Translations under genes and position numbers: made by a program
Source: Candidatus Alcyoniella australis
GTDB taxonomy: Bacteria; Lernaellota; Lernaellaia; JAVCCG01; Alcyoniellaceae
Direction of reading: 5' to 3'
Length of the DNA: 37,039 nt
NCBI GenBank assembly: GCA_030765605.1
Contig: JAVCCG010000150.1
Span: forward strand, 1 to 37,039
Notes under the pieces: model-generated
Seen by the model: the letters and a program-made list of their open reading frames with translations, nothing else
The model's database searches: none
Told to the model about the DNA's origin: nothing
Shown: piece by piece, positions 8,038-32,299 of the stretch
How positions within the stretch are numbered: the first letter of the stretch is position 1
How the letters are laid out: each line of letters opens with the position of its first letter

Positions 8038-9996
8038 CTACTGGACCAACGCAATCCGCGAGAGTTGAATCGTCTTTGGTCGATCGTCCCCGGGAAAGCC
8101 TACGTCGGAGGGAACGAAGCTTGGACTGATCGACAAACGCAGCGCCAGATTCTGCCCCGAGGTCGTCGTATCAGCGAGCTCAATCCGACGTTCGAATAAT
8201 CCACTGTGTTCAATTTTGAAGCTTCCCAGGCTGTTGCCGTCAAGCTCGAGATCGATGGTAACGGGGCGATCGTTCAACAATGAGAGATCCGCAAATCCGC
8301 TGAGTTCCAAGGCGTTGCGCGCGCCTGATGCGCGCAGCAGCGCAAGCGATTGCGGGGCCAACCAGGCCAGACGATCTTCGCCGGAGTAGCTAAATCCACG
8401 AGCCAACTGCAACGGATCGAAGTTTTCTTGGGCAATCTCGATCAGCTCAGTGGCCTGAGTTTCCAGGGCATCGATGGCCGCCGCGGCGCTGGTGTAGAAC
8501 AGCAGGATCTCGACTCGGTAATCGATAAAGTCGATTCGCGGATCGCGGATCCAATTCGCGTCAATATACTGGCGAGCGAATCCCGCAGGATCGAAGAAGC
8601 CCTCATAGCTGGTTACCAGCCAGACGCGTTGCGGATTGTGCTTGCGCAGGTTGCGTTTGATCCAAACCTCGATCGGCTGTTGTTCGAGTTGGCCGAAGAC
8701 GAACGGGTCGCAGAGCAGGATATATTCAACCTGCGCCGGGCCGTGGTAGTAGTGCAAAAATCCGCCGGCCGCCCCGTCGTGGTAGACCAAAACCAGGTCG
8801 TCTTGCGATGCGAGCTGCGCCAGATGTTGCGCCGCCCCGCGCCAATCGTCACGCTGCAATTTGGGATCGCTACGCGCCTGTTTGATCGAAAGTAGACTCA
8901 GCGCGATGCACAACGCCAACAGGCCCCATGCGGCGTAACGCATCCAGGAGCGTAATGAAACGAATCCGGCGCCGGCTGCCAGGCAGATCAGCGGCAAGTA
9001 GCCGATTAGATAATTCGGCCGCATTATCGGAGCGGCCAGCGACAACAGAAAAACTACCAGCAACGGACCAAGCGCACAGAAAAGCAACAGGGGGCGCAGC
9101 AGCGGTGTTCTCTTGTCGCCGATCAATCCACAGCCGTAGAGCATCCAGAAGGGCAACGCGAGCAAGGCCAGCAACAGCATGAAGGCCGTCGAGTCGTGAG
9201 GAAGGGCGTCGATCCAAGGCAACAGGGCTGTAACGTCCGACTCCGGACCTCCGATCGCCAGAGAAATCCAGACCTGCCAAATTGATCGACCGACCGACGC
9301 CAGCTCACGAAATTGAAAGGAACGGTTGAACAACAGCTGCACGGCGATCGGGAAGGCCAGGGGAAGGCAAAGCAGCGCAAGTTTGGCAACAGCCTTGATC
9401 CGCCTGGACCAACTCGGCGCGTCCCGGCGCAGATAGACGATCAATGCTGCGTGACCCAGCAACAGGAACAGACTGAAGTAATGCGTCCAGATCGCAGCTC
9501 CCGCGGCCAGCACATACAGGTGCTCTGAACGTCTGTCGCGGCGATCGATCCAGCGCATAAGGGCCCAGGTGCACAGCAGGCACATCAGGGCAAACAACGT
9601 GTAGTAGCGCAGTTCCTGCGAGAAGTAGACATGGAACGGATTGACCGCCAACAGCAGTGCCGATGCGCCGGCCACGCGCGGTCCGTTCAAACGTCGCGCC
9701 AAGAGGTAGAGCACTGCCACCGCCGCAATGCCCAGCAGCGCGGGCAGCAGCCTCATCCAGGCCGCAGCGTCGCTGATGCGCGACCAGAGGTTGAACAGTG
9801 CATAGCTCAACGGCGGATTTACGTCGGCCAGCCCGACAAGCGCCAGCATGTCCGCCAGCGGTCGATTGCTGATCGTCAGCGTGCTGACCTCGTCGTGCCA
9901 CAGCGACTGATCGTCCAGACCCAGTAGGCGCAGCACTGCGGCTAGGGCGACTATCGCCAGCAAGACCAGCGGCTCATGTAAACGACGCAAGTTCAC
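8038..9996 (-). CDS. GT39-type (ArnT/PMT-like) membrane glycosyltransferase with C-terminal accessory domain
   Basis: This 652-residue GT-C fold protein has about 10-12 membrane helices. After helix 1 comes SLWHDEV with the acidic pair Asp35-Glu36, and then the loop NPPLSY (about 60-65), the classical signature of lipid-phosphate-sugar-dependent GT39/ArnT enzymes. These transfer a sugar from a polyprenyl carrier to protein or lipid outside the inner membrane. The last roughly 118 residues form a soluble, probably beta-rich domain (FSYSGEDRLAW, later FVPSDVGF) that resembles the tandem domains in the radical SAM proteins at 14738 and 16669. The start is GTG with a weak ribosome site. Donor and acceptor cannot be told from sequence. 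Confidence 0.85.
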   Translation of the reverse strand: MNLRRLHEPLVLLAIVALAAVLRLLGLDDQSLWHDEVSTLTISNRPLADMLALVGLADVNPPLSYALFNLWSRISDAAAWMRLLPALLGIAAVAVLYLLARRLNGPRVAGASALLLAVNPFHVYFSQELRYYTLFALMCLLCTWALMRWIDRRDRRSEHLYVLAAGAAIWTHYFSLFLLLGHAALIVYLRRDAPSWSRRIKAVAKLALLCLPLAFPIAVQLLFNRSFQFRELASVGRSIWQVWISLAIGGPESDVTALLPWIDALPHDSTAFMLLLALLALPFWMLYGCGLIGDKRTPLLRPLLLFCALGPLLVVFLLSLAAPIMRPNYLIGYLPLICLAAGAGFVSLRSWMRYAAWGLLALCIALSLLSIKQARSDPKLQRDDWRGAAQHLAQLASQDDLVLVYHDGAAGGFLHYYHGPAQVEYILLCDPFVFGQLEQQPIEVWIKRNLRKHNPQRVWLVTSYEGFFDPAGFARQYIDANWIRDPRIDFIDYRVEILLFYTSAAAAIDALETQATELIEIAQENFDPLQLARGFSYSGEDRLAWLAPQSLALLRASGARNALELSGFADLSLLNDRPVTIDLELDGNSLGSFKIEHSGLFERRIELADTTTSGQNLALRLSISPSFVPSDVGFPGDDRPKTIQLSRIALVQ

Positions 9997-10066
9997 GTCC
10001 AGAGTCTAAATGAATCGCGCTTTACGACAAAGAACACAAAAAAATGACGCGATGCATAAAAAAGGC

Positions 10067-10095
10067 TTGACAGTCTTGACGCGCCGCATTATATT
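10067..10095 (+). promoter_or_regulatory. Sigma70-type promoter of the phasin-like gene
   Basis: TTGACA at 10067-10072, a 17-base spacer and TATATT at 10090-10095 form a near-consensus housekeeping promoter. It is followed by an untranslated leader of roughly 80 bases and a strong Shine-Dalgarno, AGGGAG at 10171-10176. This predicts strong constitutive expression. Confidence 0.8.
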
Positions 10096-10183
10096 TGACG
10101 CACTGAGTCACAAGAACGCGCCAATGACAGCGCGCTGAGATAGATCAACTAAAACGATTGTCGAGATCAAAGGGAGTTAAACA

Positions 10184-10588
10184 ATGGCACAGATCAAGAT
10201 CAGTCAGGTACGCGAGGGCGTCAAGACCGCTCTCAAGCCGCTGGCGAACCTCGAAGAGCGCTTCAAGGAAATCGTCGAGAAGATCCAGTCCCAGAAGGTC
10301 AAGACCGACGACCTGCCAAAAGTACTCAACGAGCTTACCGGCAAACTGAAAAAGGCCCGCAGCGAGTTCGAGCGTTCCTTCAGCGACGGTCTGACCCAGA
10401 TGATGGGCGCGATCAACGTCGCCACCAAGGCCGACATCGACGCCATCGACAAGAAGATCGACAAGCTGGCCAAGCAGATGGCCAAACTGCAGGCCCCCAG
10501 CGCCAAAAAGGCCCCGGTCAAGAAAGCCGTTGCCAAGAAGGCCCAGGCCAAAAAGCCGGTTGCCAAGAAAAAAGCATCCAAGAAGTAA
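10184..10588 (+). CDS. Phasin-like protein with histone-H1-like Lys/Ala tail
   Basis: This 134-residue protein has no signal peptide and no membrane segment. Residues 1-104 are helical heptads ending in ATKADIDAIDKKIDKLAKQM, which resembles the leucine-zipper-like region of PhaF/PhaI polyhydroxyalkanoate granule proteins. Residues about 105-134 are a Lys/Ala/Pro tail (AKKAPVKKAVAKK), like the DNA-binding tails of PhaF, AlgP and bacterial H1-like proteins. I infer a structural protein bridging granules, or other partners, with the nucleoid. No PHA synthase is in the window, so a purely nucleoid-associated role is equally possible. It is monocistronic, with a near-perfect promoter, strong ribosome site and clear terminator, suggesting an abundant protein. 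Confidence 0.75.
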   Translation: MAQIKISQVREGVKTALKPLANLEERFKEIVEKIQSQKVKTDDLPKVLNELTGKLKKARSEFERSFSDGLTQMMGAINVATKADIDAIDKKIDKLAKQMAKLQAPSAKKAPVKKAVAKKAQAKKPVAKKKASKK

Positions 10589-10643
10589 CATCAAGCTACG
10601 GTGAATAGCTGAATAGTTTTCCTGGCTCCTAAATATGTATCTC

Positions 10644-10675
10644 GCCCGCTACCCCCCAGCAGCGGGCATTTTTTT
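10644..10675 (+). terminator. Rho-independent terminator of the phasin-like gene
   Basis: A 7-bp perfect stem, GCCCGCT / AGCGGGC, with a 10-base C-rich loop is followed by ATTTTTTTT. It lies 55 bases after the stop codon. Confidence 0.85.
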
Positions 10676-10702
10676 ATTTCGGCCAAGGTTCTCTGCGTTG
10701 CA

Positions 10703-10750
10703 TTGTTCAGCTGCGGTCGATGGATATAACCAATCATTGTCTGATATAAA
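10703..10750 (+). promoter_or_regulatory. Candidate promoters for queD
   Basis: Two overlapping possibilities lie just upstream of queD. One is TTGTTC (10703-10708) with a 16-base spacer to TATAAC (10725-10730). The other is the extended -10 element TGATATAAA (10742-10750). I saw no preQ1-riboswitch-like pseudoknot in the short leader. Confidence 0.45.
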
Positions 10751-10779
10751 GAAGCGCCGTTTGAAGTAATGGAGGTTCG

Positions 10780-11148
10780 ATGTATCTGCTGACGGTTAAG
10801 GCTGATTTCGCCGCAGCCCACGCCCTGCGCGGTTATAAGGGGGCGTGCGAGTCGCTCCACGGTCACAACTGGATCGTCGAGCTGACTCTCAGCGCCGCGG
10901 TTCTGGACGAAGTGGGCCTTGGCATTGATTTTAAGGAAATGAAAAATCAGCTCAATGCTGAACTAGAGCGATTTGACCACGGCTTTCTCAACGAGGTCGA
11001 GCCCTTCGAGCGGATCAATCCCAGCAGCGAAAACATCTCACGCGTGCTCTACGAACGCCTTTCAAAGCGCCTCAACAGTGACAACGTCAAGGTTGTCGAA
11101 GTGGCGCTGTGGGAAACACCCAACTCGCGGGCCGCATACCGTCCCTGA
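10780..11148 (+). CDS. queD: 6-carboxytetrahydropterin synthase QueD (PTPS family)
   Basis: This 122-residue enzyme of the 6-pyruvoyl-tetrahydropterin synthase family converts dihydroneopterin triphosphate to 6-carboxytetrahydropterin in the queuosine pathway. Zinc ligands His14, His27 and His29 (in HGHNW), the catalytic Cys23 (KGACESLHGH), the FDHGFLN motif (about 65-71) and Glu112 (WETP) are all present. Length and motifs favour QueD over eukaryote-like PTPS, and queA and tgt in the same window support that reading. The ATG has GGAGG at 10771-10775. It stands alone on the plus strand and ends one base from the oppositely oriented gene at 11150. Confidence 0.92.
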   Translation: MYLLTVKADFAAAHALRGYKGACESLHGHNWIVELTLSAAVLDEVGLGIDFKEMKNQLNAELERFDHGFLNEVEPFERINPSSENISRVLYERLSKRLNSDNVKVVEVALWETPNSRAAYRP

Positions 11149-11149
11149 G

Positions 11150-12919
11150 CTACTTGGGCGGCTGCACCTCGAGCATTTTCAGCTGCAGATCGATAAAGCG
11201 TTGCAAGCGATCGGCGTCCTCGGGCGTTGCGCCCAGCTCGCGGAAGTCGCGCTGCCAGGAGCGCTCGAAGTACGGCCCGGCTGCCGCATCGACCCAGATC
11301 TCGCCGATTGCCGCGCCGGCTTTAACCAGATCGCTGTAATCGCTTTCAACAGCATCGATCACAGCGCGGCGGGCCGTGGGCGACAGGTTGGGCACGGTGT
11401 ACAGTCCGACGCCGACGCCCAGAGCACAGTAGGGTGCGTTCGCCCGATCAAAGTGGCGGTCGCAGGCCTGCAACGCCCTGCGCGCGCTGCCATCGTTCCA
11501 CAGCCCGAACTGAATTCCCACGCCGAAGCTGAAGTATGACGCCTCAAGATCGCCCAGCTGTCCGCCGATTTCCCACAGACGATCGGGATCGCGCGCCCAC
11601 TTGCTGCCGATCTCAACGTAGATTATCCCCTCGTCCCAGGCTTTGGATCGCAGGCGCTCGACCTGCGGTTTATCAAATTGCAACAGGCTGCTCTGCCCGA
11701 TAGTTCCGGCGATCAAGGGTCCGCAAAGCAATAAGGGCAACCAGATTTTCGGTCGTGAGCCGTTCAGCAAATAGTGTGCGCTCAGTCCTATGGCAGCCGC
11801 CAGCCAGGGCAGCATCACGAAAATGTGGGCATGGCTCTCCGGATCGAGGCTCTGCCATCCGCTGAGGAATAGGCCGTAATCCGTGGCCGAGAAGATCAGC
11901 GCGTAGATCAGTAGGTAGACCCAGATCACGCAGGCAAAGGCTCCCTTGGGCCAGGCTCCGCCGCGCAACATTGCGCGTGGTCCGCCACGCGATTTAAGTG
12001 CGACGATGATTAATCCGACACATGCGGGTAAGTACCAGACATAGGCCCAAAGCTTGCGCGGCAACCCGAGGCTGTCGCGGAAGTGGAATGAGGCCGGCAG
12101 GTCGTCGATGAACAGTGCGCCAAAGCGAACGACCATTGCCTGGAGTCGCTCGCCAACGCCCACCGGCGCCCCTGAGCCCGGCGATCCGATAGCATCGCGT
12201 ATCCGTTGTAAGCCCCAGAAATCATGGGTCGCGTTGTACAAAATCCAGGGCGCAAAGCCGATCAGCGCGCCGAGTAGGAAGTACAGCAGCGCCGGACCAA
12301 AAAACCGCAATCGATCGCGCGCGAACCACATCAGGCATACGCTGAGCGGGGCGGCCAGATAACCGTAATGCATGTACGTGCCAAACCCCGCCAGCAGACC
12401 CAGAGCGAACATTCGGATTGGTGAACGGCTGCCGCGTTCGAACATCGGCATGGCGATCAGGAACGTCAGGGCGCTTAGGGCCGCGGCCTCGGCGTAGTTG
12501 CCCCAGGGGAGCAACGTCACCTGGCTTACGTAGGGCGGCGCTAGAATCAGCATTCCGCCTGCGATCAGCGCGGCCGTGCGCGATGCCAACCGTTTGACCA
12601 GCAGGTAGATGCTGACCAACAGCAGCAAAGAAAAAGCAATGGCCACGGTCTTGAGCGCCAGGTGATTCTCACCCAGCAGCTTAAATGGGATCACGGTCAA
12701 CAGACCGGCGACCAGCGTTCCGCCCTCGTAGTCACCGGGTGTCAGCTCGAGCAACGGAAGCTGCGGCCCGACGATCACCAGATGGGCGATCGATCCGGTC
12801 TTGTACTCCTCCTCGTCGTAAACATAGGGCGAGTACAGCAGCAGCACAGCGCGCCAAATCAGGAACAGCACGATCAGCAGCGCCAGCGCCCAGTCCACGC
12901 GTTGTCGGGAGTTCACCAT
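11150..12919 (-). CDS. GT-C family membrane protein with C-terminal soluble repeat domain
   Basis: This 589-residue protein has about ten membrane helices in its first 430 residues. After helix 1 comes VYDEEEY with acidic residues at 35-37, the position of the catalytic acidic pair in GT39-like GT-C enzymes. YEGGTLVAGLL and an FSLL-containing helix match the protein at 25128-27203 closely, so the two are paralogues. The last roughly 150 residues are soluble and contain two copies of a short G-V-G motif (FSFGVGIQFG and ALGVGVGLY). ATG at 12919 overlaps the end of the upstream gene by seven bases, so the pair is one operon. Likely a polyprenyl-sugar-dependent transferase; substrate unknown. Confidence 0.7.
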   Translation of the reverse strand: MVNSRQRVDWALALLIVLFLIWRAVLLLYSPYVYDEEEYKTGSIAHLVIVGPQLPLLELTPGDYEGGTLVAGLLTVIPFKLLGENHLALKTVAIAFSLLLLVSIYLLVKRLASRTAALIAGGMLILAPPYVSQVTLLPWGNYAEAAALSALTFLIAMPMFERGSRSPIRMFALGLLAGFGTYMHYGYLAAPLSVCLMWFARDRLRFFGPALLYFLLGALIGFAPWILYNATHDFWGLQRIRDAIGSPGSGAPVGVGERLQAMVVRFGALFIDDLPASFHFRDSLGLPRKLWAYVWYLPACVGLIIVALKSRGGPRAMLRGGAWPKGAFACVIWVYLLIYALIFSATDYGLFLSGWQSLDPESHAHIFVMLPWLAAAIGLSAHYLLNGSRPKIWLPLLLCGPLIAGTIGQSSLLQFDKPQVERLRSKAWDEGIIYVEIGSKWARDPDRLWEIGGQLGDLEASYFSFGVGIQFGLWNDGSARRALQACDRHFDRANAPYCALGVGVGLYTVPNLSPTARRAVIDAVESDYSDLVKAGAAIGEIWVDAAAGPYFERSWQRDFRELGATPEDADRLQRFIDLQLKMLEVQPPK

Positions 12920-14655
12920 GCCCGGTCCACCTGCCAGATCGTCAGCCGCACGGGTCCGGAGCCCTCGTTGTATTGCTCGGAGCTGTAGCGCAGCATCTGC
13001 GGTTGCAGCTCAATGCCAAGCTCCTCAACCTCGATCGCTTCGACATCGGCTAGAAGTTCCACGGGCAGCGACTTGATCATCAGGTAGTTCACATCGCGCT
13101 GAGCCAGATATGAATGCAGTTCCCCGTTGTCCATAGCGCGCTTGAAATTGAAGTCCATAATCACGCCGTCGAGGTTGATCGTGTCCAGTCCGGAAAAGAA
13201 GGCGAACACGCCGGCGTCTCGAGCTGCGGCCAGGCTGTCGTGAGGCAGCCGCGCGCGCGCCCACTGCGCCGCGTTGTAGGATTCGGATTGCCAGGTGCGG
13301 GTCGCACCGCTTTGCAGATCCTGTATGCGCTGACGATAGGAAGCGTTCTCGATCGAAGCGATCCAGGCAACCGATACGACAATCAGCAAGCCAAGCACAA
13401 TGCCGAGCATTCGAGGAGAACGTAGCGGTGCATCGAGCTTAAAGCGCGGCAGAATGCGCCCGGCGTCCAGGGCGATAATCGCAAACGCCATGGCGTACGC
13501 AACGCAGTGCCAAAAGGCGAAGTAGCGCGCGATGAACAGCAGCTCGTAGCCAAAGTGCAGCAAAACGAAACAAGCTGCTACCGATGCAAGCGTCTGCAGG
13601 TTCTCGATACTGCGACGCTCTGGACGCGACGCCACGAATAGTCGGATTAATCCCAGGCAAAGCACGAGCACGAACGCAGGGGCCAGGGCGATACGCTGGG
13701 GCGGCAGTGCCAACCACAACAGCAGCAGACCGCAAAGTCCCAGGACAACGGTATGCAGCATTATGGTCGCGACTTCGATCCAACGTCGGCGCTGGGCAAG
13801 CGGCGCGACAGCCCACAGCAACATACGCGTCAGGGCCAAGCCGACCACGCCGAAGTAGAACGGATGCATCGGCATGTCCTTGCGCCAGTTACCAAAGTCG
13901 AACGAGCTTTTTATCGCTCCGCTGATCGGCATCAGGTGCCCGAACTCGGACAGGTTCCACGCCAGGTAGGGCGTGACCATCAGCAGACCCAACGTTCCCG
14001 AGGCGACAATGCGCAGCAGGCCGCGCCGCTCATTGCGCGACTGAAACAGCGCGATCAAATACAGCGGCCCGACCAGGAAGATGAAGTCGACCCGCGAGAG
14101 CAGCAACAACCCGCTAAGCAGTCCGATCAGCGCAGCCCTTCCGGGAGTGCCAAAAGGATCGACCGGGCGCAGGTATACGGCAAGTAGTAATGCTAAGAGA
14201 ACGAAGCCTAAGTAGGGCTCGAGGCCGTTGATCATCAGCTGCTGCACATCGTCGAAAAACATCAAAGCCGCCGGCGCCAGACCCCAGGCCGCAGAAATCC
14301 CGCGACCGACGCTGAGCAGCCAGATCAGGCAGAACAGCACGGCACAGGCCGTCTGCATCACAAGTACCGCGTGCAACAGTGACGCCGGATCCCCGGCCGA
14401 GAAACGAGCGAGCAGTGAACAAACCATAAAGTGCAGCGGCTGGAAACCGTTGGTCAACGTGCTGCCATCGAAACTGACGATCGATCGACGGGCCAGGTTG
14501 TCCGCGGTCTCGAGGTAGTACATCGCATCGTCGGGCACGCGCTGCATGTTCTCCGAGACCAGCAGGCGTACGTCGAGCAGCGCATAGTGCAACAGGTGCG
14601 CGGCCAGCCCCACCAGTAGTAACAACCCCAGGGCGATAACGAGCTTTTTCGACAT
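12913..14655 (-). CDS. GT-C family polytopic membrane glycosyltransferase-like protein
   Basis: This 580-residue protein has roughly 11-12 membrane helices and a soluble C-terminus of about 130 residues. VPDDAMYYLETADNLA (about 40-55) places an acidic pair, Asp42-Asp43, in the first extracytoplasmic loop, and LTNGFQPLH follows. This arrangement is typical of GT-C transferases that use polyprenyl-phosphate sugars. The frame is open further upstream to 14820, but that part overlaps the divergent radical SAM gene and encodes a Cys/Ser/Arg-rich string unlike a protein start. ATG at 14655 begins right at helix 1 (MSKKLVIALGLLLLVG). No good Shine-Dalgarno is visible; a TATAAT ten bases upstream could give a very short leader. 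Confidence 0.72.
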   Translation of the reverse strand: MSKKLVIALGLLLLVGLAAHLLHYALLDVRLLVSENMQRVPDDAMYYLETADNLARRSIVSFDGSTLTNGFQPLHFMVCSLLARFSAGDPASLLHAVLVMQTACAVLFCLIWLLSVGRGISAAWGLAPAALMFFDDVQQLMINGLEPYLGFVLLALLLAVYLRPVDPFGTPGRAALIGLLSGLLLLSRVDFIFLVGPLYLIALFQSRNERRGLLRIVASGTLGLLMVTPYLAWNLSEFGHLMPISGAIKSSFDFGNWRKDMPMHPFYFGVVGLALTRMLLWAVAPLAQRRRWIEVATIMLHTVVLGLCGLLLLWLALPPQRIALAPAFVLVLCLGLIRLFVASRPERRSIENLQTLASVAACFVLLHFGYELLFIARYFAFWHCVAYAMAFAIIALDAGRILPRFKLDAPLRSPRMLGIVLGLLIVVSVAWIASIENASYRQRIQDLQSGATRTWQSESYNAAQWARARLPHDSLAAARDAGVFAFFSGLDTINLDGVIMDFNFKRAMDNGELHSYLAQRDVNYLMIKSLPVELLADVEAIEVEELGIELQPQMLRYSSEQYNEGSGPVRLTIWQVDRAW

Positions 14656-14664
14656 GCGGCGCAC

Positions 14665-14720
14665 ATTATAGCCGCAAACGAGCCGTTTGCGGATCATAAG
14701 CTTGACCACTGAGCGGTCAA
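14665..14720. promoter_or_regulatory. Divergent promoter/operator region with two inverted repeats
   Basis: The 82 bases between the diverging genes hold TATAAT on the minus strand (14670-14665). They also hold a perfect 9-bp inverted repeat, CCGCAAACG-AGC-CGTTTGCGG (14672-14692), and a 19-base near-palindrome with arms TTGACC / GGTCAA (14702-14720). The second also supplies a -35-like TTGACC on the plus strand. Regulator-binding sites controlling both directions are a reasonable inference. Confidence 0.5.
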
Positions 14721-14737
14721 CGCTGAAAATGACCGTC

Positions 14738-16672
14738 ATGTCACACCGCGTACAAGAGCCTGGACAAGTCCGCTTTTTCGAGGACTCGCAGCTGGTCGGC
14801 GAACACTTCCAGCGGGCCACGCCCGACTATCCAGACGTGATTCAGCTCGAGATCACATCGGTCTGCAATCTACGTTGCGTGATGTGTCCGATCCAACTCG
14901 AGAAGCGCGAGCGCACGGCGGACGAGCGAATCATCAGCCTTGAAAGTCTGCACGAACTGCGCGAGTTGTTCGAAAACGCTTACGAGATCGAGCTAACCGG
15001 ATTCGGCGAGTTCCTCTGTCACCCGCAGGTAATCCAGGCGCTGCGTCTGTTCCGCGAATGCGGTTTGAACGTGCACGCGACATCCAACGGCCAGCTGCTG
15101 ACCGAACCCATCGCCAACGCCATCATTGAGGAACGGCTGATCGACCTGCTGGCTTTCAGCCTGGACGCGGCTACCAAGCCGACCCACGACGCGATCCGGC
15201 CCGGCGGCGACTTCGAGACAATCATCGAGAATATCAGCCGACTTGCGGAGCTGAAACGTGATGCAAAGACAGTGCTGCCGATCGTGCACCTGAACTTCCT
15301 GGCAATGGAAAAAAACATCGACGAGCTGCCCACGTTTATCGAGCTTGCCTCGCGCGTGGGCGCCGAGCAGGTGATCGTCCAGGGACTGTGCGAGGATACA
15401 CAGGCCAGCGTGCTCTCCGCCCAAGGTGCAACGATGATCGAGGCCTACGAACGCGCCGCGGCACTTGCCGCCAAGCTCGGCGTCCGTCTCGAGTTCTGGT
15501 ACATGCCTATCGACGCCCAGAAGATCAGCGGACCGACTGTCCGTAAGGTGCAGGTGACCCAGCCGTTACCCGGGCCCTCGCGCCTGGACTGCCTCTACCC
15601 CTGGGAGCGGGTGTTTATAAAGTCGAACCTCGACGTCCAGGTCTGCGCCACGCTCTGGGAGGAGCTGGTGATGGGCAACCTGCGCCACAGCAGCTTCGAG
15701 CAAATCTGGCGCAGCGAGGGCTATCGCCAACTGCGACAAGCGATGTGCGGAACTTCGCCTCCGATCGAATGCGCGCGTCACTGCACGAGCAAGGCCCGGC
15801 GCTCGCCACACACGATCGAGCAGCTCTCGACGTTCGTCGATTTGGGCAAGATCGACTACGACCAGCTCGGACTAGGGTTCTATCCTCGAGAAGTTGGCGA
15901 CGACGGACGGCCGCACCGCTGGGTCAAGCGTCGCTCCACGGTCTTTCTGCGCAACGATGGCTCTCCACTCTTAACCATCGATCTCAACGTGCATCCAGCA
16001 GCGCCCGAACTTAGCGGCAGCCTTTGGATCAACAATAAAAGCGCTGCTCGTTTCCAGACCAAGGGACTATGGACAACGCCGTTGAGTTTCATTGTTCCGC
16101 CCACCGACGACGAGGTGCTCGAGATCGAGCTGCGATTTGAGCGCGATGTGAAAGGCGGCGAGATCGATCAGCGGGCTGTTCAACTCGGCGAGGCGAACCG
16201 TCCGCTGACCGCCATGGTCCACCGGGTGGAGCTTAAAGGCTCCATTGAGATGATTGGCGAGCTCATCGACTTTAACAGTGATCCGTCCGGACTATTCGAC
16301 CTGGGCTGGTATCCGCAGGAGGAACTGGGCGATAGCCGCGGACGCTGGACCACCGATCGTGCGCGTTTCGCGCTACTGAACAACGGAGCGACCCATTTGC
16401 AGCTCGACCTCTGTGTTTGTGGAAAAGTGCCGGGGCAAAAAGTAAGTGTTTCGCTCTGCGACAATTTGATCGACGAGTTCACGGTCGAGCGTCCGGGAGC
16501 ACTGCTGCGCAACATCAGCCTGCCGCAGTGCGACGATAAATATTTGGTCTTCGAATTGCGCATTGATCCGGCCTGGAACCCGCCGTTGCCAGACACCAGA
16601 CAGCTCGGAGTGTTCCTCTCCGGCGCGCGACTGGCCCGACCCACGCTGCTTCGCAGGCTGCGCTCGCGATGA
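14738..16672 (+). CDS. Radical SAM/SPASM protein with two C-terminal LGxGW-type accessory domains
   Basis: This protein has 644 residues from ATG 14738; ATG 14729 and TTG 14687 are alternatives, none with a good ribosome site. I chose 14738 because the FFED segment then aligns with the downstream paralogue. The radical SAM cluster motif is CNLRCVMC (Cys43, 47, 50 by this start), followed by a TIM-barrel region with ELTGFGE. A SPASM-like auxiliary Fe-S region follows, with Cys at about 285, 303, 337, 345 and 349. From residue about 376 there are two copies of a roughly 140-residue domain, with LGLGFYP...RW and DLGWYPQE...RW signatures. The family covers peptide and sugar modification; the substrate is unknown. 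It overlaps the next gene by ATGA. Confidence 0.78.
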   Translation: MSHRVQEPGQVRFFEDSQLVGEHFQRATPDYPDVIQLEITSVCNLRCVMCPIQLEKRERTADERIISLESLHELRELFENAYEIELTGFGEFLCHPQVIQALRLFRECGLNVHATSNGQLLTEPIANAIIEERLIDLLAFSLDAATKPTHDAIRPGGDFETIIENISRLAELKRDAKTVLPIVHLNFLAMEKNIDELPTFIELASRVGAEQVIVQGLCEDTQASVLSAQGATMIEAYERAAALAAKLGVRLEFWYMPIDAQKISGPTVRKVQVTQPLPGPSRLDCLYPWERVFIKSNLDVQVCATLWEELVMGNLRHSSFEQIWRSEGYRQLRQAMCGTSPPIECARHCTSKARRSPHTIEQLSTFVDLGKIDYDQLGLGFYPREVGDDGRPHRWVKRRSTVFLRNDGSPLLTIDLNVHPAAPELSGSLWINNKSAARFQTKGLWTTPLSFIVPPTDDEVLEIELRFERDVKGGEIDQRAVQLGEANRPLTAMVHRVELKGSIEMIGELIDFNSDPSGLFDLGWYPQEELGDSRGRWTTDRARFALLNNGATHLQLDLCVCGKVPGQKVSVSLCDNLIDEFTVERPGALLRNISLPQCDDKYLVFELRIDPAWNPPLPDTRQLGVFLSGARLARPTLLRRLRSR

Positions 16673-18552
16673 ACGACGAACGCGACGACAGGCTGTTCTT
16701 CGAGGACACTGCGCTCTACCGCGAACACATGTCCGCGGCCAGGCTGCCATACCCTGAACGGATCCAGTTCGAGGTTACCTCCGAGTGCAACCTACGCTGC
16801 ATCATGTGCCCGATCACCAGCGAGTCGGACCGCGGTCGCAGCGGCGAGAGCCTGCGCTATTCGCTCGAGGCCTGCCTTGAGCTGCGCGAGCTTTTCGAGG
16901 CGGCCAGCACCGTAGAGCTCACCGGATTCGGCGAGATCTTTACCCACCCGCAGATCATCGAAATCCTGCGTTTCCTCAAATCGTGCCGCCTGGACGTGCA
17001 CGGCTCGTCCAACGCCATTGCGCTTAAGCCCGAGATGTCACGCATCATTGTGGCCGAAAAGCTGATGGACGTGCTGTGTTTCAGCATTGACGCAGCCAGC
17101 GCGCCGACCTATCGCCGCATCAGACGCGGGGCGACCTGGAAGGAACTGCACCGCAACCTCGGGGCGCTGCGCGAGGCCAAGCAGGAGCTCTCGGCCAAGC
17201 TGCCGCTGATCTACTTCAGCTTTGTCGCCATGCGCCGCAACATCGAGGAACTGCCGGACTTCGTGCGCATGGCCTCTGACTACGGCGCGTGCAAGGTGAT
17301 TGTGCAGCACGTTGTTGAGAACCGCCTTACCGTTGGTCAATCGCTGATCAATTTCCCCGATCTTGCCAACCGCTGTCGCGAACAGGCCGCGCAGGTGGCG
17401 GACGAGCTTCGTATCGAGCTTGATATGCGCAACCTCAACCCGGTGGAGACCGGGGAGGCCAACCCGGTCAAGCTGGGCAAGCTGTGGACTCCGCAGAATT
17501 TTAAAGAGGCCAATCAGCTGATTAAGAACTGCGAGTTCCCCTGGAAGCATATCTTCCTCAAGAGCAATCAAGACGTGCAGATCTGCGCGATCCTCTGGGA
17601 ACAAATGGTGATGGGCAACCTACGCGAGACGAGCATCGACAACATCTGGAACGGTAAAAAGTATCGAGAGCTGCGCGATCAGATGGCCTGTACCGACAGC
17701 CCCGAGGCCTGCGTGTTCTGCCTGTTCCGCGGCTGGCGCAAACCCACGCCGCTGGACGAGCTGCACAGCGAAATTAAGATGGGGCCGCAGCACGAGGGCC
17801 AACTGGGTTTGGGTTGGCACGACCCGGAGCACGATAAAGCGGGACGGCCGTTTCGCTGGATGAGCGGCCCGGCCACCATGTTCCTACGCAATGCCGGCGG
17901 ACCGATGATCGAGCTCGAGCTCTATCGCTACGAGGCCGCCCCGCTATTGCGCGGCAATTTGCTGATCAACGACATCAACGTCGGACCGATCGACAGCCAT
18001 GACGTTTACGGCGACACGGTGCGCGTCCCGGTGCCGCCCGGGCTGGGTCCGGTGCTCAAGATCGAGATCGCAATTTCCAAACCTTGGCATTCCCAAGAAG
18101 CCGATGGACTCGAGGGGAACCGCTACCTTGGTTTCCTGGCATTTGGCGCAGCCAATGTCGGAGACATCGATCAGCTAAGCAGTCGACTGAAGATGGACGG
18201 GAGTGAGTCCGAACAGCTCGGAGTCGGCTGGCTGCCGCACGAGGGACACGGGCGCGATAGCTTTCGCTGGATCGGCGGACATGCCCTAGTCGTAATGCCT
18301 GAAAACGGCCGTAAGTTTGTGCTCAGCGCCAGCCTACCAAAAGGTCTGGATCGACGAATGCTGCAAATCTTCTGCGGCAGCGAAAAAATCTACAGCGGAT
18401 TGCTGGAGGACAACGGCAGACAACAGACGATCAAGGCCGACCTGCCGCAATCAGAGGGTTGGCGCATTATCAGACTTGAAGTCGCTATCCCCGACGGCAA
18501 TGGAGACAGGCCCTACGGCCTGCGCATTCACGGTATGTCAGTCGAAGGTTGA
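16669..18552 (+). CDS. Radical SAM/SPASM protein, paralogue of the preceding gene, with two LGxGW-type domains
   Basis: This 627-residue protein overlaps the upstream stop as ATGA, so translation is probably coupled. The radical SAM motif CNLRCIMC has Cys40, 44 and 47. VELTGFGEIFTHPQII and SNQDVQICAILWEQMVMGNLR match the paralogue nearly residue for residue, and SPASM-type Cys lie at 288, 306, 341, 348 and 351. Two accessory domains follow: LGLGWHDPE (379-387) with RW at 396-397, and LGVGWLPHE (517-525) with RW at 533-534. The radical SAM halves are more alike than the tails, suggesting duplication followed by divergence of binding domains. They may work as a heterodimer or act on successive positions; that is inference. 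Confidence 0.8.
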   Translation: MNDERDDRLFFEDTALYREHMSAARLPYPERIQFEVTSECNLRCIMCPITSESDRGRSGESLRYSLEACLELRELFEAASTVELTGFGEIFTHPQIIEILRFLKSCRLDVHGSSNAIALKPEMSRIIVAEKLMDVLCFSIDAASAPTYRRIRRGATWKELHRNLGALREAKQELSAKLPLIYFSFVAMRRNIEELPDFVRMASDYGACKVIVQHVVENRLTVGQSLINFPDLANRCREQAAQVADELRIELDMRNLNPVETGEANPVKLGKLWTPQNFKEANQLIKNCEFPWKHIFLKSNQDVQICAILWEQMVMGNLRETSIDNIWNGKKYRELRDQMACTDSPEACVFCLFRGWRKPTPLDELHSEIKMGPQHEGQLGLGWHDPEHDKAGRPFRWMSGPATMFLRNAGGPMIELELYRYEAAPLLRGNLLINDINVGPIDSHDVYGDTVRVPVPPGLGPVLKIEIAISKPWHSQEADGLEGNRYLGFLAFGAANVGDIDQLSSRLKMDGSESEQLGVGWLPHEGHGRDSFRWIGGHALVVMPENGRKFVLSASLPKGLDRRMLQIFCGSEKIYSGLLEDNGRQQTIKADLPQSEGWRIIRLEVAIPDGNGDRPYGLRIHGMSVEG

Positions 18553-18717: not shown

Positions 18718-18852
18718 TTACGACATCGTGTCGTCGGCCGACTCGATTTCATGACCGCAACCACCATCGCAACCAGCGCCGACCGCGGCCAGGGCGCACA
18801 TTATCGTCGTAGCTAACAATATCGCGCCGACCCTGCGGTCGAAAAAGTTCAT
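18718..18852 (-). CDS. Small exported or lipoprotein-like peptide, possibly truncated
   Basis: This is a 44-codon ORF whose ATG overlaps the stop of the B12-type radical SAM gene as ATGA, which implies translational coupling. The N-terminus is basic and then hydrophobic (FFDRRVGAILLATTIMCAL), followed by AVGAGCDGGCG. That looks like a secretion signal ending at a Cys, although the lipobox is not canonical because Gly replaces Leu or Val at -3. A short acidic tail (EIESADD) follows. Because the frame continues after the TAA, this may be the first half of a broken gene. No family is recognised. A Cys/Gly-rich small partner beside a radical SAM gene could also be a modification substrate, but nothing in the sequence proves it. 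Confidence 0.5.
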   Translation of the reverse strand: MNFFDRRVGAILLATTIMCALAAVGAGCDGGCGHEIESADDTMS

Positions 18853-20276
18853 TTTGTTTTGGAGTCGGCCAGGAAGACCCGGAACCAATGCAGCCCCTCG
18901 AAGAACATCCGGATCAATCCGACCTTGGAGTGTTGCAGGTAGGAGATCGTGTAGAACAACACAAAGATGTAATGGAAGACGAAGTTCGGACGCAGCTTGG
19001 TCAGCGGCAGCAGCAAAGGCTCGAGCCACGGCCAGCGTACCAACGGATAGAAGAACTTTTGCAGGTTGAAAATCCTTCGCTGGTCAGGCTGGTCCAAAGC
19101 GTTGTCGGCAAAGGTGTTGATGCCCACCGTGTCGTCGTCCAGTTTTTGGAGGTACCCGCACTCAATGGCGTAATCGGTGATCTCCAGTCCGGCATAGGGC
19201 TGGAACACCGAGCACCAGACGTCTGGAGCCTTGATCTGTTGGTTTATCCTGACGGTCTTCAGCGCCAGATCAAAGGTCTCGCCGGGCAATCCGAGAATGT
19301 TCGATGTAAAAAAGTGGATCTTGTATTTGTGGAGCAGGGCGGCTGTCTGGCGAATCTGTTCGTCCTTCACCGCCTTGTTCAGCAGCTCGTTACGGCGTTG
19401 TTCGTCGCCGGTCTCCACTCCGAACAGCACGCAGAAGCATCCGGTCTGCGACAATCGCCGAATAACCTCCTCGGACTCACCGGCGCGGATGTAGGCCAGA
19501 TAGGGTACGCGGATCTGCTGCTCGTACAGGTCGAGGAACTCAAGCAACCATTTGCGCTGGAGGGTGAACACGTCGTCCTCAAAGCGCACCTGCTTCATCG
19601 GCCAGCGACGTTTGACCTCGGCTATCTCCTCAATCACGCGCTCCACGCTGTAGTGGCGAATATAGCTTTTGCTGTTGGGGTAGATTTCCTTGAAACGACG
19701 GTTGAAGCAAAAGCTACAGTTGAACGGGCAGCCGCGGCCGGTGAAGAAGTACTTGACCGGATTGTTGCGCAGAAAACGATACCGATAATAGCTGTCGCGG
19801 TCGTGCAGCGGCAGGCTGTCCAGATCCTCGATCAACGGACGAACGCTGTTCTGGACCAGCTCGCCCTCGCTGCTGAAGCACATGTTCTCGATCTTGCTCC
19901 AGTCGCGGTCTCCGTTATCGATCATCGCCGCCAGGTCGAGCATCGGGCCCTCGCCCTCGCCGCGGCAGACCATATCGAACTGCGGTTTAAGCGCCAGCTC
20001 CGGGTGCAGGGTCGGGTGCGGTCCGCCGATCACAACCGGCAGCTCGGGATGATTTTGTTTGACCGCGGAGGCGGCTTGCTCTACCCAACCCTGTTCGCAG
20101 TTGGTGAAACTGAAGGCAACCATCCCCGGCCGTTCGCGCTCGATCGCCTCGAGCAGGCGTGTCACACGGTGGTCCACCAGATTGACCACTTCGTGTCCAT
20201 CGCGCTTCAGCACTGCCGAGAGCATCATGAAGCCGAAGTATTCACGCCAGATATTCTGTACCAACAGGGCTTTCAT
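18849..20276 (-). CDS. B12-binding-domain radical SAM protein (BchE/HpnJ-like architecture)
   Basis: This 475-residue protein has an N-terminal cobalamin-binding-like Rossmann domain with VVIGGPHPTLHPE (about 81-93) and VCRGEGEGP. The radical SAM motif is GCPFNCSFC (Cys183, 187, 190), with later motifs FEDDVF and NILGLPGET. This is the layout of BchE, HpnJ-type and B12-dependent methyltransferase enzymes, which act on unactivated carbons of lipids, tetrapyrroles or antibiotics. No N-terminal DxHxxG motif is visible, as in many class members. A strong GGAGG precedes the ATG. The C-terminal roughly 100 residues hold a weakly hydrophobic segment and may touch the membrane. The specific reaction is unknown. 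Confidence 0.83.
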   Translation of the reverse strand: MKALLVQNIWREYFGFMMLSAVLKRDGHEVVNLVDHRVTRLLEAIERERPGMVAFSFTNCEQGWVEQAASAVKQNHPELPVVIGGPHPTLHPELALKPQFDMVCRGEGEGPMLDLAAMIDNGDRDWSKIENMCFSSEGELVQNSVRPLIEDLDSLPLHDRDSYYRYRFLRNNPVKYFFTGRGCPFNCSFCFNRRFKEIYPNSKSYIRHYSVERVIEEIAEVKRRWPMKQVRFEDDVFTLQRKWLLEFLDLYEQQIRVPYLAYIRAGESEEVIRRLSQTGCFCVLFGVETGDEQRRNELLNKAVKDEQIRQTAALLHKYKIHFFTSNILGLPGETFDLALKTVRINQQIKAPDVWCSVFQPYAGLEITDYAIECGYLQKLDDDTVGINTFADNALDQPDQRRIFNLQKFFYPLVRWPWLEPLLLPLTKLRPNFVFHYIFVLFYTISYLQHSKVGLIRMFFEGLHWFRVFLADSKTK

Positions 20277-20509: not shown

Positions 20510-22144
20510 ATGAATTACTCAACAGACGTGATCATCGTGGGAAGCGGCGTGGCCGGACTGAGCCTGGCGCTCAAGGTCGCACAGTACGCCAAGGTAATCG
20601 TCCTGACCAAGAAGGACCGGGCCGAATCCTCAACGCGTTACGCTCAGGGCGGCATCGCCTCTGTGCAGTCTGCGGAGGACAGCTTCGAGCTGCACGTCGA
20701 GGATACGCTTAAGGCGGGGGTCGGGCTTTGTCACCAGGATGTCGTCGAGCTGGTCGTGCGCTCGGGACCGAACAAGATCGCCGAACTGATCCAACTCGGG
20801 GTGCGTTTTACCAAACGCGAGGGCGGTCATTGCCAGGACCTCGACCTGCACCGCGAGGGCGGCCACAGCAAACGGCGCATCGCTCACGTCCACGACCTGA
20901 CCGGCGAGGAAATCGAACTGTCGCTGCTACGGGCCGTGCAGGACAATCCGCGCATCGAGCTGTTGGAAGGCTATCCGGCGATCGATCTGATCACCATGGG
21001 GAAACTCACGCGCAGGCCCGGCGAGGACCGCTGTCTGGGACTCTACGCCCTGGAAGCCTCCACCGGACGGATCATCAAGCTGCTGGGCAAGGCCACGGTT
21101 CTCGCCACGGGCGGCGCGGGAAAGGCCTATCTGTATACGAGCAACCCCGACGTGGCCACCGGCGATGGAGTTTCGATGGCCTACCGCGTGGGCGCGGCAG
21201 TGGCCAACATGGAGTTCTTCCAGTTTCACCCGACCTGCCTCTATCATCCGCACGCCAAGAGCTTCCTGATCACCGAGGCGGTGCGCGGCGAGGGCGGCAT
21301 ACTGGTCAACGATCGCGGCCAACGCTTTATCGAGAAGATCCATCCGCTGGGCGAGCTGGCGCCGCGCGACGTGGTGGCCCGCGCCATTGACCATGAGCTT
21401 AAGGTCAGCGGCGCGGACTGCGTTTACCTGGACATCAGCGGCAAGCCCGCCGACGAAGTGCGGCGCAAATTCCCGCACATTTACAAGACCTGCAACAAGT
21501 TCGGCATCGACATCACCAGCCAGCCGATTCCGGTGGTGCCCGCCGCGCACTACATGTGCGGCGGAGTGTTTGTCGACCAAAGCGCCGAGACCACCCTTCA
21601 CGGACTATTGGCTATCGGCGAGGCGAGCTGCACCGGCCTGCACGGCGCTAACCGTTTGGCGAGCAACAGCCTGCTCGAGGCGTTGGTTTACGCTGACCGC
21701 GCTGCCGAACGGATCAAGAGCTACATGGATCTGGATTTGCCCGACCTCAGCGTACCGGACTGGGACAGCGTTGGCACCGTGGAGAGCGACGAGCAGATCG
21801 TGGTCAGCCACAACTGGGACGAGCTGCGACGCGCGATGAGCAACTACGTGGGAATCGTGCGCACCGACAAGCGGCTGGAACGCGCAACGCGTCGCATCGA
21901 TACCCTGCAAAACGAGGTCGAGGATTACTACTGGAAATACATGGTAACACTCGACCTGATCGAGCTGCGCAACATCTGCACAGTGGCGCGGCTGATCACC
22001 GAGTCGGCGCGCATGCGCCGCGAAAGCCGCGGGCTGCACTACAACCTGGACTACCCGCAACGCGACGATCTACGCTGGCGGCGCGACACGGTCTTGCAGC
22101 GACAGGTCGATTGGAACGACATACACAGCGTCCGCTTCAGTTAA
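20510..22144 (+). CDS. nadB: L-aspartate oxidase NadB
   Basis: This 544-residue flavoenzyme oxidises L-aspartate to iminoaspartate, the first step of de novo NAD synthesis. The FAD dinucleotide motif VGSGVAGLS (about 10-18), STRYAQGGIA (41-50), FFQFHPTCLY, EAVRGEGGILVNDRGQRF and GLHGANRLASNSLLEALV are all conserved, and length matches the family. YAQGGIA and the long C-terminal helical domain distinguish it from succinate dehydrogenase flavoproteins. ATG at 20510 sits very close to GGTAGGG (20502-20508), an unusually short spacing, but no better in-frame start exists. nadA and nadC are not in this window. Confidence 0.95.
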   Translation: MNYSTDVIIVGSGVAGLSLALKVAQYAKVIVLTKKDRAESSTRYAQGGIASVQSAEDSFELHVEDTLKAGVGLCHQDVVELVVRSGPNKIAELIQLGVRFTKREGGHCQDLDLHREGGHSKRRIAHVHDLTGEEIELSLLRAVQDNPRIELLEGYPAIDLITMGKLTRRPGEDRCLGLYALEASTGRIIKLLGKATVLATGGAGKAYLYTSNPDVATGDGVSMAYRVGAAVANMEFFQFHPTCLYHPHAKSFLITEAVRGEGGILVNDRGQRFIEKIHPLGELAPRDVVARAIDHELKVSGADCVYLDISGKPADEVRRKFPHIYKTCNKFGIDITSQPIPVVPAAHYMCGGVFVDQSAETTLHGLLAIGEASCTGLHGANRLASNSLLEALVYADRAAERIKSYMDLDLPDLSVPDWDSVGTVESDEQIVVSHNWDELRRAMSNYVGIVRTDKRLERATRRIDTLQNEVEDYYWKYMVTLDLIELRNICTVARLITESARMRRESRGLHYNLDYPQRDDLRWRRDTVLQRQVDWNDIHSVRFS

Positions 22145-22146
22145 TT

Positions 22147-22176
22147 CTGATCAATAATCCGGGTTGACCCGATCAG
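22147..22176. other. Hairpin between convergent nadB and radical SAM gene
   Basis: Outer arms CTGATC / GATCAG enclose an inner CGGG-TTGA-CCCG hairpin just after the nadB stop. The last bases overlap the end of the opposing gene. No T-run follows on either strand, so intrinsic termination is doubtful. It may be an mRNA 3'-end structure. Confidence 0.3.
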
Positions 22177-23639
22177 GAAGTGCGGCTGTTTTTAACCAGC
22201 CGTTTGGCGGCCCCGGGAATGCGCGATGGTTGTTTGATCAGATCGCGCACCTTCTCGCCGGTGGTGCGTAGGTCGGGATGGGCACGCGCGTACCAAAAAT
22301 CGTTCCACAACTCGTTGGCCTCGCAGCAGATCTGCTCGAGCTGCTCTGCACTCAACTCATCGGTGCGCACCACAGCACTGCGAAATCCGTCATAGCGCGA
22401 AAAGTCGCTCTGGACGATCTTGCCCTCGGCGCTGAGCATGCGGTGGTAGCGGCTGCCGGGAAACGGCGTGGCAATAGTGAACTGTAACGACTCCGGCGCC
22501 AGCTCCAGCGCCAGGTCGATGGTGCTGCGGGCCGTATCGATCGTCTCACCGGGCAGTCCGAACATGAACGTCAGGTGCGTGCTGATCCCCAGCTCGTGAG
22601 ACAGCCGAACCATCCGCTTGACCTTGTCCAAGTCCAGCCGCTTGTCGCAAGTTCTAATCAGGTCGGGCGATGCGCTCTCCACGCCGTATTTGAGGCTGTG
22701 CAGCCCTGACTCGCGCAGGGCGGTCAGCAGCTGCTCGTCCATCAGGTCGGCGCGGGCCATGATCGCCCAGGGCACGCCGATGCGACGGCGCTTGATTTCA
22801 TCGGCGATCATCAGCGTCCGTTTGCGGTCGATGTTAAACGTGTCGTCGTCAAAGTAGACCGACTTGAATCCGGCGCGCCGCACCAGCCATTCCATCTCGT
22901 CGACAGTGTCGACAACGCTGCGCTTGCGGTAGCGACGGCTGCCGTACATGATCTGCGGCCAAGCGCAGAAGATACAGCCAAACGGGCAGCCGCGGCTGGA
23001 CCACATCTGTACGCTGGGACGCGGGATGTACCCAGGCTCGTCGTGGTAATCGTGCATCGGCAGGAAGTGCCGCGCGGGCCAGGGCAGACTGTCCAGATCC
23101 TCGATCAACGGTCGGCGCTTCTCGACCTGTACATCGCCGTTGCGGCGATGCACCAGACCGCGGCAGCCGTCGAGCTGTGCACCGGACTCCAAGCGTTGCA
23201 CCAGTTCGAGCAGCGTTGTCTCGTACTCGCCGATCAGCACCATGTCGACCGCGTTGTGCTCTGCGAGGAATTCGGGTTCGTACATGTAGCTGTGTAGGCC
23301 GCACAGGCCGATCTTCGCTCCCGGCAAACGGTTGTGCAGCTCGGAAACGTGGCGTAGGTCAACATCAATGCTGATCGTGCTGACCTCGAGTACGATCAGC
23401 TCCGGCGCAAACTGCTCGACCCGCGCGTAAAAGGTCTGTTCGTCGAGCGCCTCGGCCACGGCGTCAATCAGCGACACGTCGTAGCCGTGACGTTCAAGAA
23501 GTGCGGTGGCATAGGCCATAAAGAACGGGAAGGGCATGTATTCGAGGTTTTCAGCCTCAAAGTGCGGCCAGCGCGATCCGGCCCTCACGCCGTAGAAACC
23601 CGGCTTGGACCATGGTGCGTTTGCCAGCAGGATCTTCAT
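22173..23639 (-). CDS. B12-binding-domain radical SAM protein
   Basis: This 488-residue protein is the last gene of the long minus-strand operon. The N-terminal cobalamin-binding-like domain includes NLEYMPFPFFMAYATALLERHGYDV and KIGLCGLHSYMYEP, where a His follows the glycines as in BchE-like proteins. The radical SAM motif is RGCPFGCIFC (Cys218, 222, 225), followed by VYFDDDTFN, KYGVESA and FMFGLPGET. The shared RRPLIEDLDSLP segment links it to the protein at 18849, where a very similar string occurs. The start is ATG, one base after the preceding gene's stop. The family often modifies lipids or cofactors; the substrate here is unknown. Confidence 0.83.
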   Translation of the reverse strand: MKILLANAPWSKPGFYGVRAGSRWPHFEAENLEYMPFPFFMAYATALLERHGYDVSLIDAVAEALDEQTFYARVEQFAPELIVLEVSTISIDVDLRHVSELHNRLPGAKIGLCGLHSYMYEPEFLAEHNAVDMVLIGEYETTLLELVQRLESGAQLDGCRGLVHRRNGDVQVEKRRPLIEDLDSLPWPARHFLPMHDYHDEPGYIPRPSVQMWSSRGCPFGCIFCAWPQIMYGSRRYRKRSVVDTVDEMEWLVRRAGFKSVYFDDDTFNIDRKRTLMIADEIKRRRIGVPWAIMARADLMDEQLLTALRESGLHSLKYGVESASPDLIRTCDKRLDLDKVKRMVRLSHELGISTHLTFMFGLPGETIDTARSTIDLALELAPESLQFTIATPFPGSRYHRMLSAEGKIVQSDFSRYDGFRSAVVRTDELSAEQLEQICCEANELWNDFWYARAHPDLRTTGEKVRDLIKQPSRIPGAAKRLVKNSRTS

Positions 23640-29170: not shown

Positions 29171-30427
29171 CTAGCCGTCCTGCGAACGCCGCGCCAAGCG
29201 GAAGATCAAGCCCGCCAGCACCAGCACCGCCAGAATCAGCGCCGCGGTGAGCAGCGGCTTGTAATCCCGCGGCGGGGCCGGAGTCGCGGGGCAGACGTAT
29301 TCGGGGTTGGCGCTCTGCGGACTCAGGGACAACGCCTCGGGCCGGACGTCGGGCAGAAACTCGTAAACAGCCTGGATGTCGTAGACCGGAGCCTTAACGC
29401 CGGGCGCGCCGTAGAACAAATTGATCTGTGCGCCGGGCAGGGCGGGTATCAACAAGTAGCGACCCTGTCCGTAGGCGCTGATCCCCTGCACCGCCAGCGG
29501 CGGGTTGTCGCCCTGTTCGATCATGACCTTGATCTCCCGGGTCCAAGCCTCGGGAAAGGAGATGGTCAAATTCTGGGCGTGATACAGCTCGCTATCCACC
29601 GAAAAGATGTTCTGCGCAGCTACCGGCCGCCAGTCGTCGACGTTGAGCAGCGCGAACAGCCGCACCGGCCTGCTGAAATTCGTACCCTGCACATCGAACG
29701 TAACGTGGCTGATTAAGTAACTGTGTCCCAAGTCGTAACGCAATGTCGTGGTCTTGGCCTCGGGATCGTCCACTCTGCTCACCAGTACCGAGTCGCGCCT
29801 GATCAGCCGCGACTCGAATTTGATGTTGCGTTCGACCCTCACCGCGTCGGGCTTGATGATCGAGCCGGACTGACAGCGAATACGCAGCCTGATGCGGCGG
29901 GCGTCGGTCTCGGGATGTCGCAGGCGCAGATGGCGCGACTGCACCTCGTCGGTGTAATCGAAGATGCCCATCCCGTGCTGCACGCGCGACCATTGGCCGT
30001 CGACCATCGCGTCCATATCAACCCTGCAGCGGAAGTTGTGCTGGTCGGTCTGCACGAAAAGTTGGTTGTAGCTCATCAACCCCTCGGGCATCTCAAGCTC
30101 GAAGCGCACCGTGCCGTCGGCCTGCGCCGCCATGTTGGTCGGCTGCACGCTCACCGACTGGGTCACCCAGCGCGGGTTGTCGTCCAGCAGTTTGTAGGGC
30201 ACCGGGGTGCCCGAGCCGTCGTCGAGCCGCAAGTCGCCCAGATCGCGGCGCGCCGCGTCGAAGACCTCGCCGTCAAGTGCGATCAGGGCGTAATCGCCGC
30301 TGAACTGCTGGGGCAGTTGGACCTGTTTTTGATATTGAAACGGCGTGGAATCCAGTTGCGTAGCGTCGGCCGCGGCCGGTCCGGGCAACAGCAACAGCAG
30401 GGCGCTGAGCGCCAGGGCGTGTCTCAT
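29171..30427 (-). CDS. DUF3999 family exported membrane-anchored protein
   Basis: This 418-residue protein has a signal peptide (MRHALALSALLLLLPGPAAA), a long beta-rich extracytoplasmic part and a C-terminal membrane helix (about 390-410) ending in a basic tail. The N-terminal pattern YALIALDGEVFDAARRDLGDLRLDDGSGTPVPYKL is typical of DUF3999. These proteins are commonly encoded next to DUF2339 proteins, and here the ATG overlaps the DUF2339 stop by four bases. The function of the pair is not known to me. The beta-sandwich-like periplasmic part could bind glycan, which would suit a surface-polysaccharide operon, but this is inference. Confidence 0.85.
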   Translation of the reverse strand: MRHALALSALLLLLPGPAAADATQLDSTPFQYQKQVQLPQQFSGDYALIALDGEVFDAARRDLGDLRLDDGSGTPVPYKLLDDNPRWVTQSVSVQPTNMAAQADGTVRFELEMPEGLMSYNQLFVQTDQHNFRCRVDMDAMVDGQWSRVQHGMGIFDYTDEVQSRHLRLRHPETDARRIRLRIRCQSGSIIKPDAVRVERNIKFESRLIRRDSVLVSRVDDPEAKTTTLRYDLGHSYLISHVTFDVQGTNFSRPVRLFALLNVDDWRPVAAQNIFSVDSELYHAQNLTISFPEAWTREIKVMIEQGDNPPLAVQGISAYGQGRYLLIPALPGAQINLFYGAPGVKAPVYDIQAVYEFLPDVRPEALSLSPQSANPEYVCPATPAPPRDYKPLLTAALILAVLVLAGLIFRLARRSQDG

Positions 30428-32286: not shown

Positions 32287-32299
32287 CGATTCCTTCGAG

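Follow-up and report, generated by a model that had tools for sequence, protein, structure and literature searches.

We analysed a window of 37,039 nucleotides (the whole of the stretch taken from contig JAVCCG010000150.1 of Candidatus Alcyoniella australis), in which three proteins end in tails of related sequence. One of them, encoded at 8038–9996 on the minus strand, is a GT39-type membrane glycosyltransferase with a match to Pfam PMT_2 (45.2 bits against a cut-off of 26.1) and about 11 transmembrane segments. Its assignment comes from the PMT_2 match, the acidic first loop (WHDE) and the transmembrane helices, which leave GT39 proper and GT83-like GT-C families undistinguished. A tail of ~280 residues follows the last transmembrane segment and is probably periplasmic, judging from hydropathy and the alternation of lysine and arginine. 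The C-terminus of this protein (residues ~513–652; 8044–8457, minus strand) is a domain predicted to be a CBM-like jelly roll, and it matches the family model described below at E 5e-33.

The other two proteins, SPASM-A and SPASM-B, are radical SAM/SPASM proteins on the plus strand. SPASM-A (14687–16672) exceeds the Pfam cut-offs for both Radical_SAM (55.8 bits) and SPASM (40.1 bits); its TTG start at 14687 is doubtful, with ATG codons at 14729 and 14738 as alternatives. SPASM-B (16669–18552) likewise exceeds both cut-offs (44.1 and 43.2 bits), and its start overlaps the end of SPASM-A by 4 bases, the layout of translational coupling. The three reading frames lie where the sequence-only reading had placed them. 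Both SPASM proteins contain a CxxxCxxC motif (CNLRCVMC and CNLRCIMC) and no transmembrane segment, and they should be cytoplasmic. Each ends in two copies of the jelly-roll domain: A1 (15818–16243, residues ~378–519, family model E 4e-31) and A2 (16247–16642, residues ~521–652, E 3e-29) in SPASM-A, and B1 (17755–18165, residues ~363–499, E 4e-34) and B2 (18169–18549, residues ~501–627, E 4e-23), the most divergent of the copies, in SPASM-B.

Around these genes, the window encodes three B12-binding radical SAM proteins (18849–20276, 22173–23639 and 23641–25131, all on the minus strand), and among them lies an FAD_binding_2, fumarate-reductase-type flavoprotein of NadB-like appearance (20510–22144). 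For the protein at 18849–20276, the nearest models are those of the HpnJ, ApyD and PhpK type, none of them matched above its cut-off. Two large proteins (25128–27203 and 12913–14820) have the look of membrane glycosyltransferases without a Pfam match, the latter with a weak match only, to the LA_3751/LA_3752 putative glycosyltransferase model, and adjacent DUF3999 and DUF2339 proteins occupy 29171–32382. No obvious nucleotide-sugar or polymerase gene was found in the window. In all three genomes of the taxonomic class that carry the domain, GT39 genes bearing it stand in tandem runs, beside or between B12-binding-type radical SAM genes (L146, G000:C35:4000-20000; L147, G004:C113; L148, G006:C236), so that the GT39 runs and the cobalamin-type radical enzymes form a conserved cluster.

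The tails of the two enzyme classes are homologous

The sequence-only reading had proposed that one domain occurs in five copies on the three proteins (one on the GT39-type protein and two each on SPASM-A and SPASM-B). Among the SPASM copies, BLASTP relates A1 to B1 at 7e-20, A1 to A2 at 7e-8 and B1 to B2 at 4e-6; A1 and B1 are mutually closer than they are to A2 and B2, suggesting that the tail was doubled before SPASM-A and SPASM-B diverged. The proposed search of the GT39 tail with an HMM of the four SPASM copies gave a marginal result (5.4 bits, domain E 0.0025 against three sequences). Among 470 open reading frames the domain E was 0.4, with an alignment that was nearly full-length and colinear.

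We gathered relatives by searching with the whole GT39 and SPASM proteins, and profiles of the families replaced the comparisons with the single GT39 tail. The four-copy SPASM model matches five other GT39 tails (L044, L046, L038, L040 and L015) at 5e-9 to 8e-5, and after iteration it reaches every GT39 tail gathered, that of the window included. Sixteen of the 17 GT39 tails were collected by whole-protein similarity, L015 having been found first by the tail model, and the boundaries of the GT39 tails were set with the iterated model. Within the same taxonomic class, a SPASM-only model finds GT39 tails at E 3e-13 to 1e-3. Conversely, a GT39-only model built without the window matches SPASM-B at 7e-7 and SPASM-A at 2e-4, and a profile of the other GT39 tails recovers the window GT39 tail at 2e-21. 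Profile–profile comparison of 12 SPASM-tail copies with 17 GT39 tails aligned them over the whole length (probability 98.6%, E 5.3e-16; E 1.6e-15 with the window GT39 tail left out), while the control profiles, one set reversed and ten column-shuffled, gave E-values of 0.03–0.8. At the level of sequence, these comparisons establish the GT39 and SPASM tails as homologous, and the family profiles bear out the single domain in five copies.

The family is ~135 residues long, with a signature of approximately G-[WF]-[YH]-x-x-E ... [FW]-R-W-x5-A ... [FW]-x-P ... D-x-R-x-L-G. Over 93 copies, the conservation of its main positions is 0.89 (G), 0.85 (W/F/Y), 0.72 (E), 0.81 (R), 0.96 (W) and 0.72 (A), followed by 0.87 (P), 0.81 (D) and 0.81 (R). 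The motif first read from five sequences had thus caught a real and widespread pattern, but two of its elements were wrong for the GT39 tail: the alignment pairs R-W with A544-W545 rather than with R-L, and R-x-L-G is absent, R-P-K-T standing in its place. GT39 tails of the same class mostly have K-S where the others have L-G. The difference between the enzyme classes extends to the conserved polar residues. The E of GWYxxE (or D), the R of RW and the R of DxR are each present in 100% of the SPASM copies, versus 35%, 47% and 18% of the GT39 tails, respectively. Having lost several of these residues, the GT39 copies may not bind the same thing as the other copies.

Both versions are predicted to form a CBM-like jelly roll

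AlphaFold models computed from two separate alignments reached a pLDDT of 95.7 for the GT39 domain and 92.2 for the second copy of SPASM-A. Both are beta-sandwiches whose strands lie at closely corresponding positions, and when each was compared with solved structures, the same best neighbours were returned, as expected from the matching folds that had been proposed for the two enzyme classes. The Foldseek neighbours common to both models are CBM6 (1gmm), CBM36 (7ay3, 1w0n and 1ux7), CBM35, MiXBM (7ehg) and BcsB, and other top neighbours are jelly rolls attached to glycoside hydrolases. These matches of predicted models have E-values of 1e-4 to 1e-3, a probability of 1.00 and TM-scores of 0.4–0.6; the scores are moderate, so that the fold class, a CBM-like jelly roll, is clear and the specific CBM family is left unassigned. 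The best sequence-profile match in the PDB is a CBM35 chain, 2w3j, whose E-value of 0.073 is not significant alone; the structure search recovers this chain too, at E 1.8e-4.

None of the window tails matched a model in Pfam or NCBIfam, and relatives of the tails gave a few weak matches, by single sequences only, to unrelated models of these libraries. By this measure the domain is uncurated in the Pfam and NCBIfam libraries searched. The literature searched, which lay mostly outside the subscription journals, contained no account of the domain, nor of SPASM proteins ending in tails of this type. In summary, homology and predicted fold are well supported for the five tails, and their function is inferred.

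The domain recurs on enzymes of surface-glycan assembly

The window genome contains 10 copies on 8 proteins, every one of them a SPASM or GT39-type protein. Of its relatives from the class, two contain 10 and 10–11 copies and four contain none; each of the three domain-bearing genomes carries the domain on SPASM as well as GT39 proteins, and the other four have it on neither. The tandem SPASM pair also occurs in both other domain-bearing genomes of the class, and in a distant genome another domain-bearing tandem SPASM pair adjoins a GT1 gene. When ten candidates per genome were scored, the domain was present at E ≤1e-5 in at least 28 of 386 sampled genomes, and the highest number of copies per genome outside the class, on the same scoring, was at least 8.

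Pfam searches with 62 domain proteins matched PMT_2 (11 proteins), GT1/GT4-type transferases (6), the O-antigen ligase Wzy_C (6), GT2 (5), radical SAM (4), SPASM (4), Wzt-type ABC proteins (3), sulfatases (3) and a GDSL hydrolase (1), and many of the remaining proteins had no Pfam match. A search of named contigs with the consensus domain returned two only, from Sumerlaeaceae and Actinomycetota MAGs; with a SPASM protein as the query, no named relative was found. Plasmid and phage records gave no match to the consensus domain by tblastn, a weak test at such divergence.

One of the collected loci encodes a 1550-residue open reading frame without a Pfam match, in which the domain is repeated four to six times in tandem (L105, 1–4650; G092:C280). 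At another (L092, 394–2334), a SPASM protein with the jelly roll does not match Radical_SAM, and its CxxxCxxC motif is broken; it is possibly a degenerate, non-radical member. Beyond its jelly roll, at residues ~500–640, lies a beta-rich-looking stretch (LLGYDVSPEAWEIDGDVVFRTFW...), which may resemble a tail common on membrane glycosyltransferases.

A tree of single domains places the GT39 and SPASM versions apart from each other; the tree is poorly resolved, with 39 of 90 inner branches open, and we used it for the coarse separation of classes only. The SPASM first copies of the three genomes group together, and they join a SPASM protein from a distant genome (L079; support 88) rather than the GT39 tails. 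The separate subfamilies and the differing site residues look like those of a module that is old, in wide use and present in class-specific versions, and a recent exchange inside one pathway is not supported as the origin of the sharing. The suggestion that the domain marks a common ligand within the cluster does not hold up either, given the separate parts of the tree, the different putative site residues and the probably opposite sides of the membrane. Nor did we find support for a lipid carrier as the ligand, the solved neighbours being mostly carbohydrate-binding domains. What survives of the suggestion is a glycan-related role, which agrees with the CBM-like fold and with partners that are mostly enzymes of surface-glycan assembly.

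Interpretation and alternatives

From the fold and the partner enzymes together, glycan binding appears likely. We consider it probable, though well short of assured, that the five tails are one uncurated CBM6/35/36-like module of surface-glycan assembly, which implies a glycan substrate for the SPASM enzymes. The domain would bind a glycan, either the growing lipid-linked chain or the finished surface polymer, and hold the catalytic domain on its substrate. The GT39 copy would lie on the periplasmic side, next to the active site, and place the acceptor there in the way proposed for the CBM of EmbB/EmbC. On the SPASM proteins, the paired copies would offer the radical active site a lipid-linked glycan of the cytoplasm, or the sugar residues of that glycan. 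SPASM-A and SPASM-B would then be glycan-modifying rather than peptide-modifying radical enzymes. If the domain works on either side of the membrane, this would agree with a lipid-linked glycan, which is encountered on both sides. Against the glycan-binding explanation stand the moderate TM-scores, the loss of several conserved polar residues from the GT39 copies and the lack of obvious nucleotide-sugar or polymerase genes in the window.

The resemblance itself could be due to chance or to convergence of short beta-rich tails, and the marginal score obtained when the SPASM copies of the window were set directly against its GT39 tail would agree with this. We reject it on the negative shuffled and reversed controls, and given the reciprocal profile matches, the profile–profile E of 5e-16 and the shared predicted fold, it can hardly be credited. 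Granted homology, the domain might bind no sugar and instead, through protein–protein contacts, bring glycan enzymes together in a single membrane-associated complex. Jelly rolls of CBM-like fold also bind proteins or merely scaffold; many enzymes of a single process bear the domain; the structural neighbours include BcsB, in which jelly rolls build a multimeric crown; and conserved polar positions have been lost in the GT39 subfamily. However, the closest folds belong mostly to glycan binders, and copies on both sides of the membrane, with the GT39 side predicted, cannot all meet in one complex; we regard this explanation as rather unlikely.

A further alternative concerns the SPASM proteins, which might be maturases of peptides or metalloenzymes from the neighbourhood of TIGR04317 and TIGR04311, with tails that recognise a protein substrate. 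Many SPASM enzymes are peptide maturases, and for the catalytic part of SPASM-A and SPASM-B the best NCBIfam neighbours are a tungsten-cofactor oxidoreductase maturase model (TIGR04317) and a metalloenzyme maturase model. Against this, the tail family is otherwise found mostly on glycan enzymes, and we think the maturase explanation improbable. Membership of TIGR04317 was rejected, the scores being 115 and 114.1 bits versus an equivalog cut-off of 380.

Returning to a glycan-binding module, we suggest more speculatively that SPASM-A and SPASM-B might represent a class of radical enzymes modifying polymer-level or lipid-linked glycans, and not peptides or free nucleotide sugars, with tandem CBM-like modules holding them to the chain, and that the module might mark glycan-directed enzymes across bacteria; this extension is doubtful. 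If it is true, the module could pick glycan-directed orphans out of the radical SAM superfamily. Many kinds of surface-glycan enzymes are connected by this widespread domain, which lacks a model in Pfam and NCBIfam and offers a searchable marker for other genomes, and its presence on radical SAM/SPASM proteins is a sequence-based reason to try glycan rather than peptide substrates.

Comparison with known systems

In its predicted beta-jelly-roll fold and its size of ~135 residues, the domain is like CBM6, CBM35 and CBM36, with which it has no significant sequence similarity (no Pfam CBM match, and no better PDB profile match than the CBM35 chain above). Unlike these modules, it is attached to biosynthetic enzymes and not to glycan hydrolases. 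Both models have the jelly rolls of BcsB, from bacterial cellulose synthase, among their best structural matches, whereas BcsB is a dedicated cellulose subunit and no sequence similarity to it was found. SPASM-A and SPASM-B align with the TIGR04317/TIGR04311 maturases over the catalytic domain and the SPASM region, but they fall far below the cut-offs of these models, which have no such tail.

The C-terminal CBM of Wzt (Pfam Wzt_C), which recognises the finished end of the O-antigen, offers a precedent, being an accessory domain that reads a glycan and is borne by a protein of surface-glycan assembly (PMC11231755). We rejected identity of the two domains: the jelly-roll domain has no match to Wzt_C (PF14524), and both stand side by side in two proteins, L086 and L085, where Wzt_C is followed by the jelly-roll domain (307–438 and 469–607 in L086). 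The predicted layout of the GT39-type protein resembles that of the mycobacterial arabinosyltransferases EmbB and EmbC, in which a periplasmic beta-sandwich CBM lies past the last transmembrane helix of a GT-C enzyme, and this C-terminal CBM has been proposed to guide the acceptor into the GT-C active site (PMC7341804). The GT39-type protein differs from them in belonging to another transferase family, and no sequence relation between them was found.
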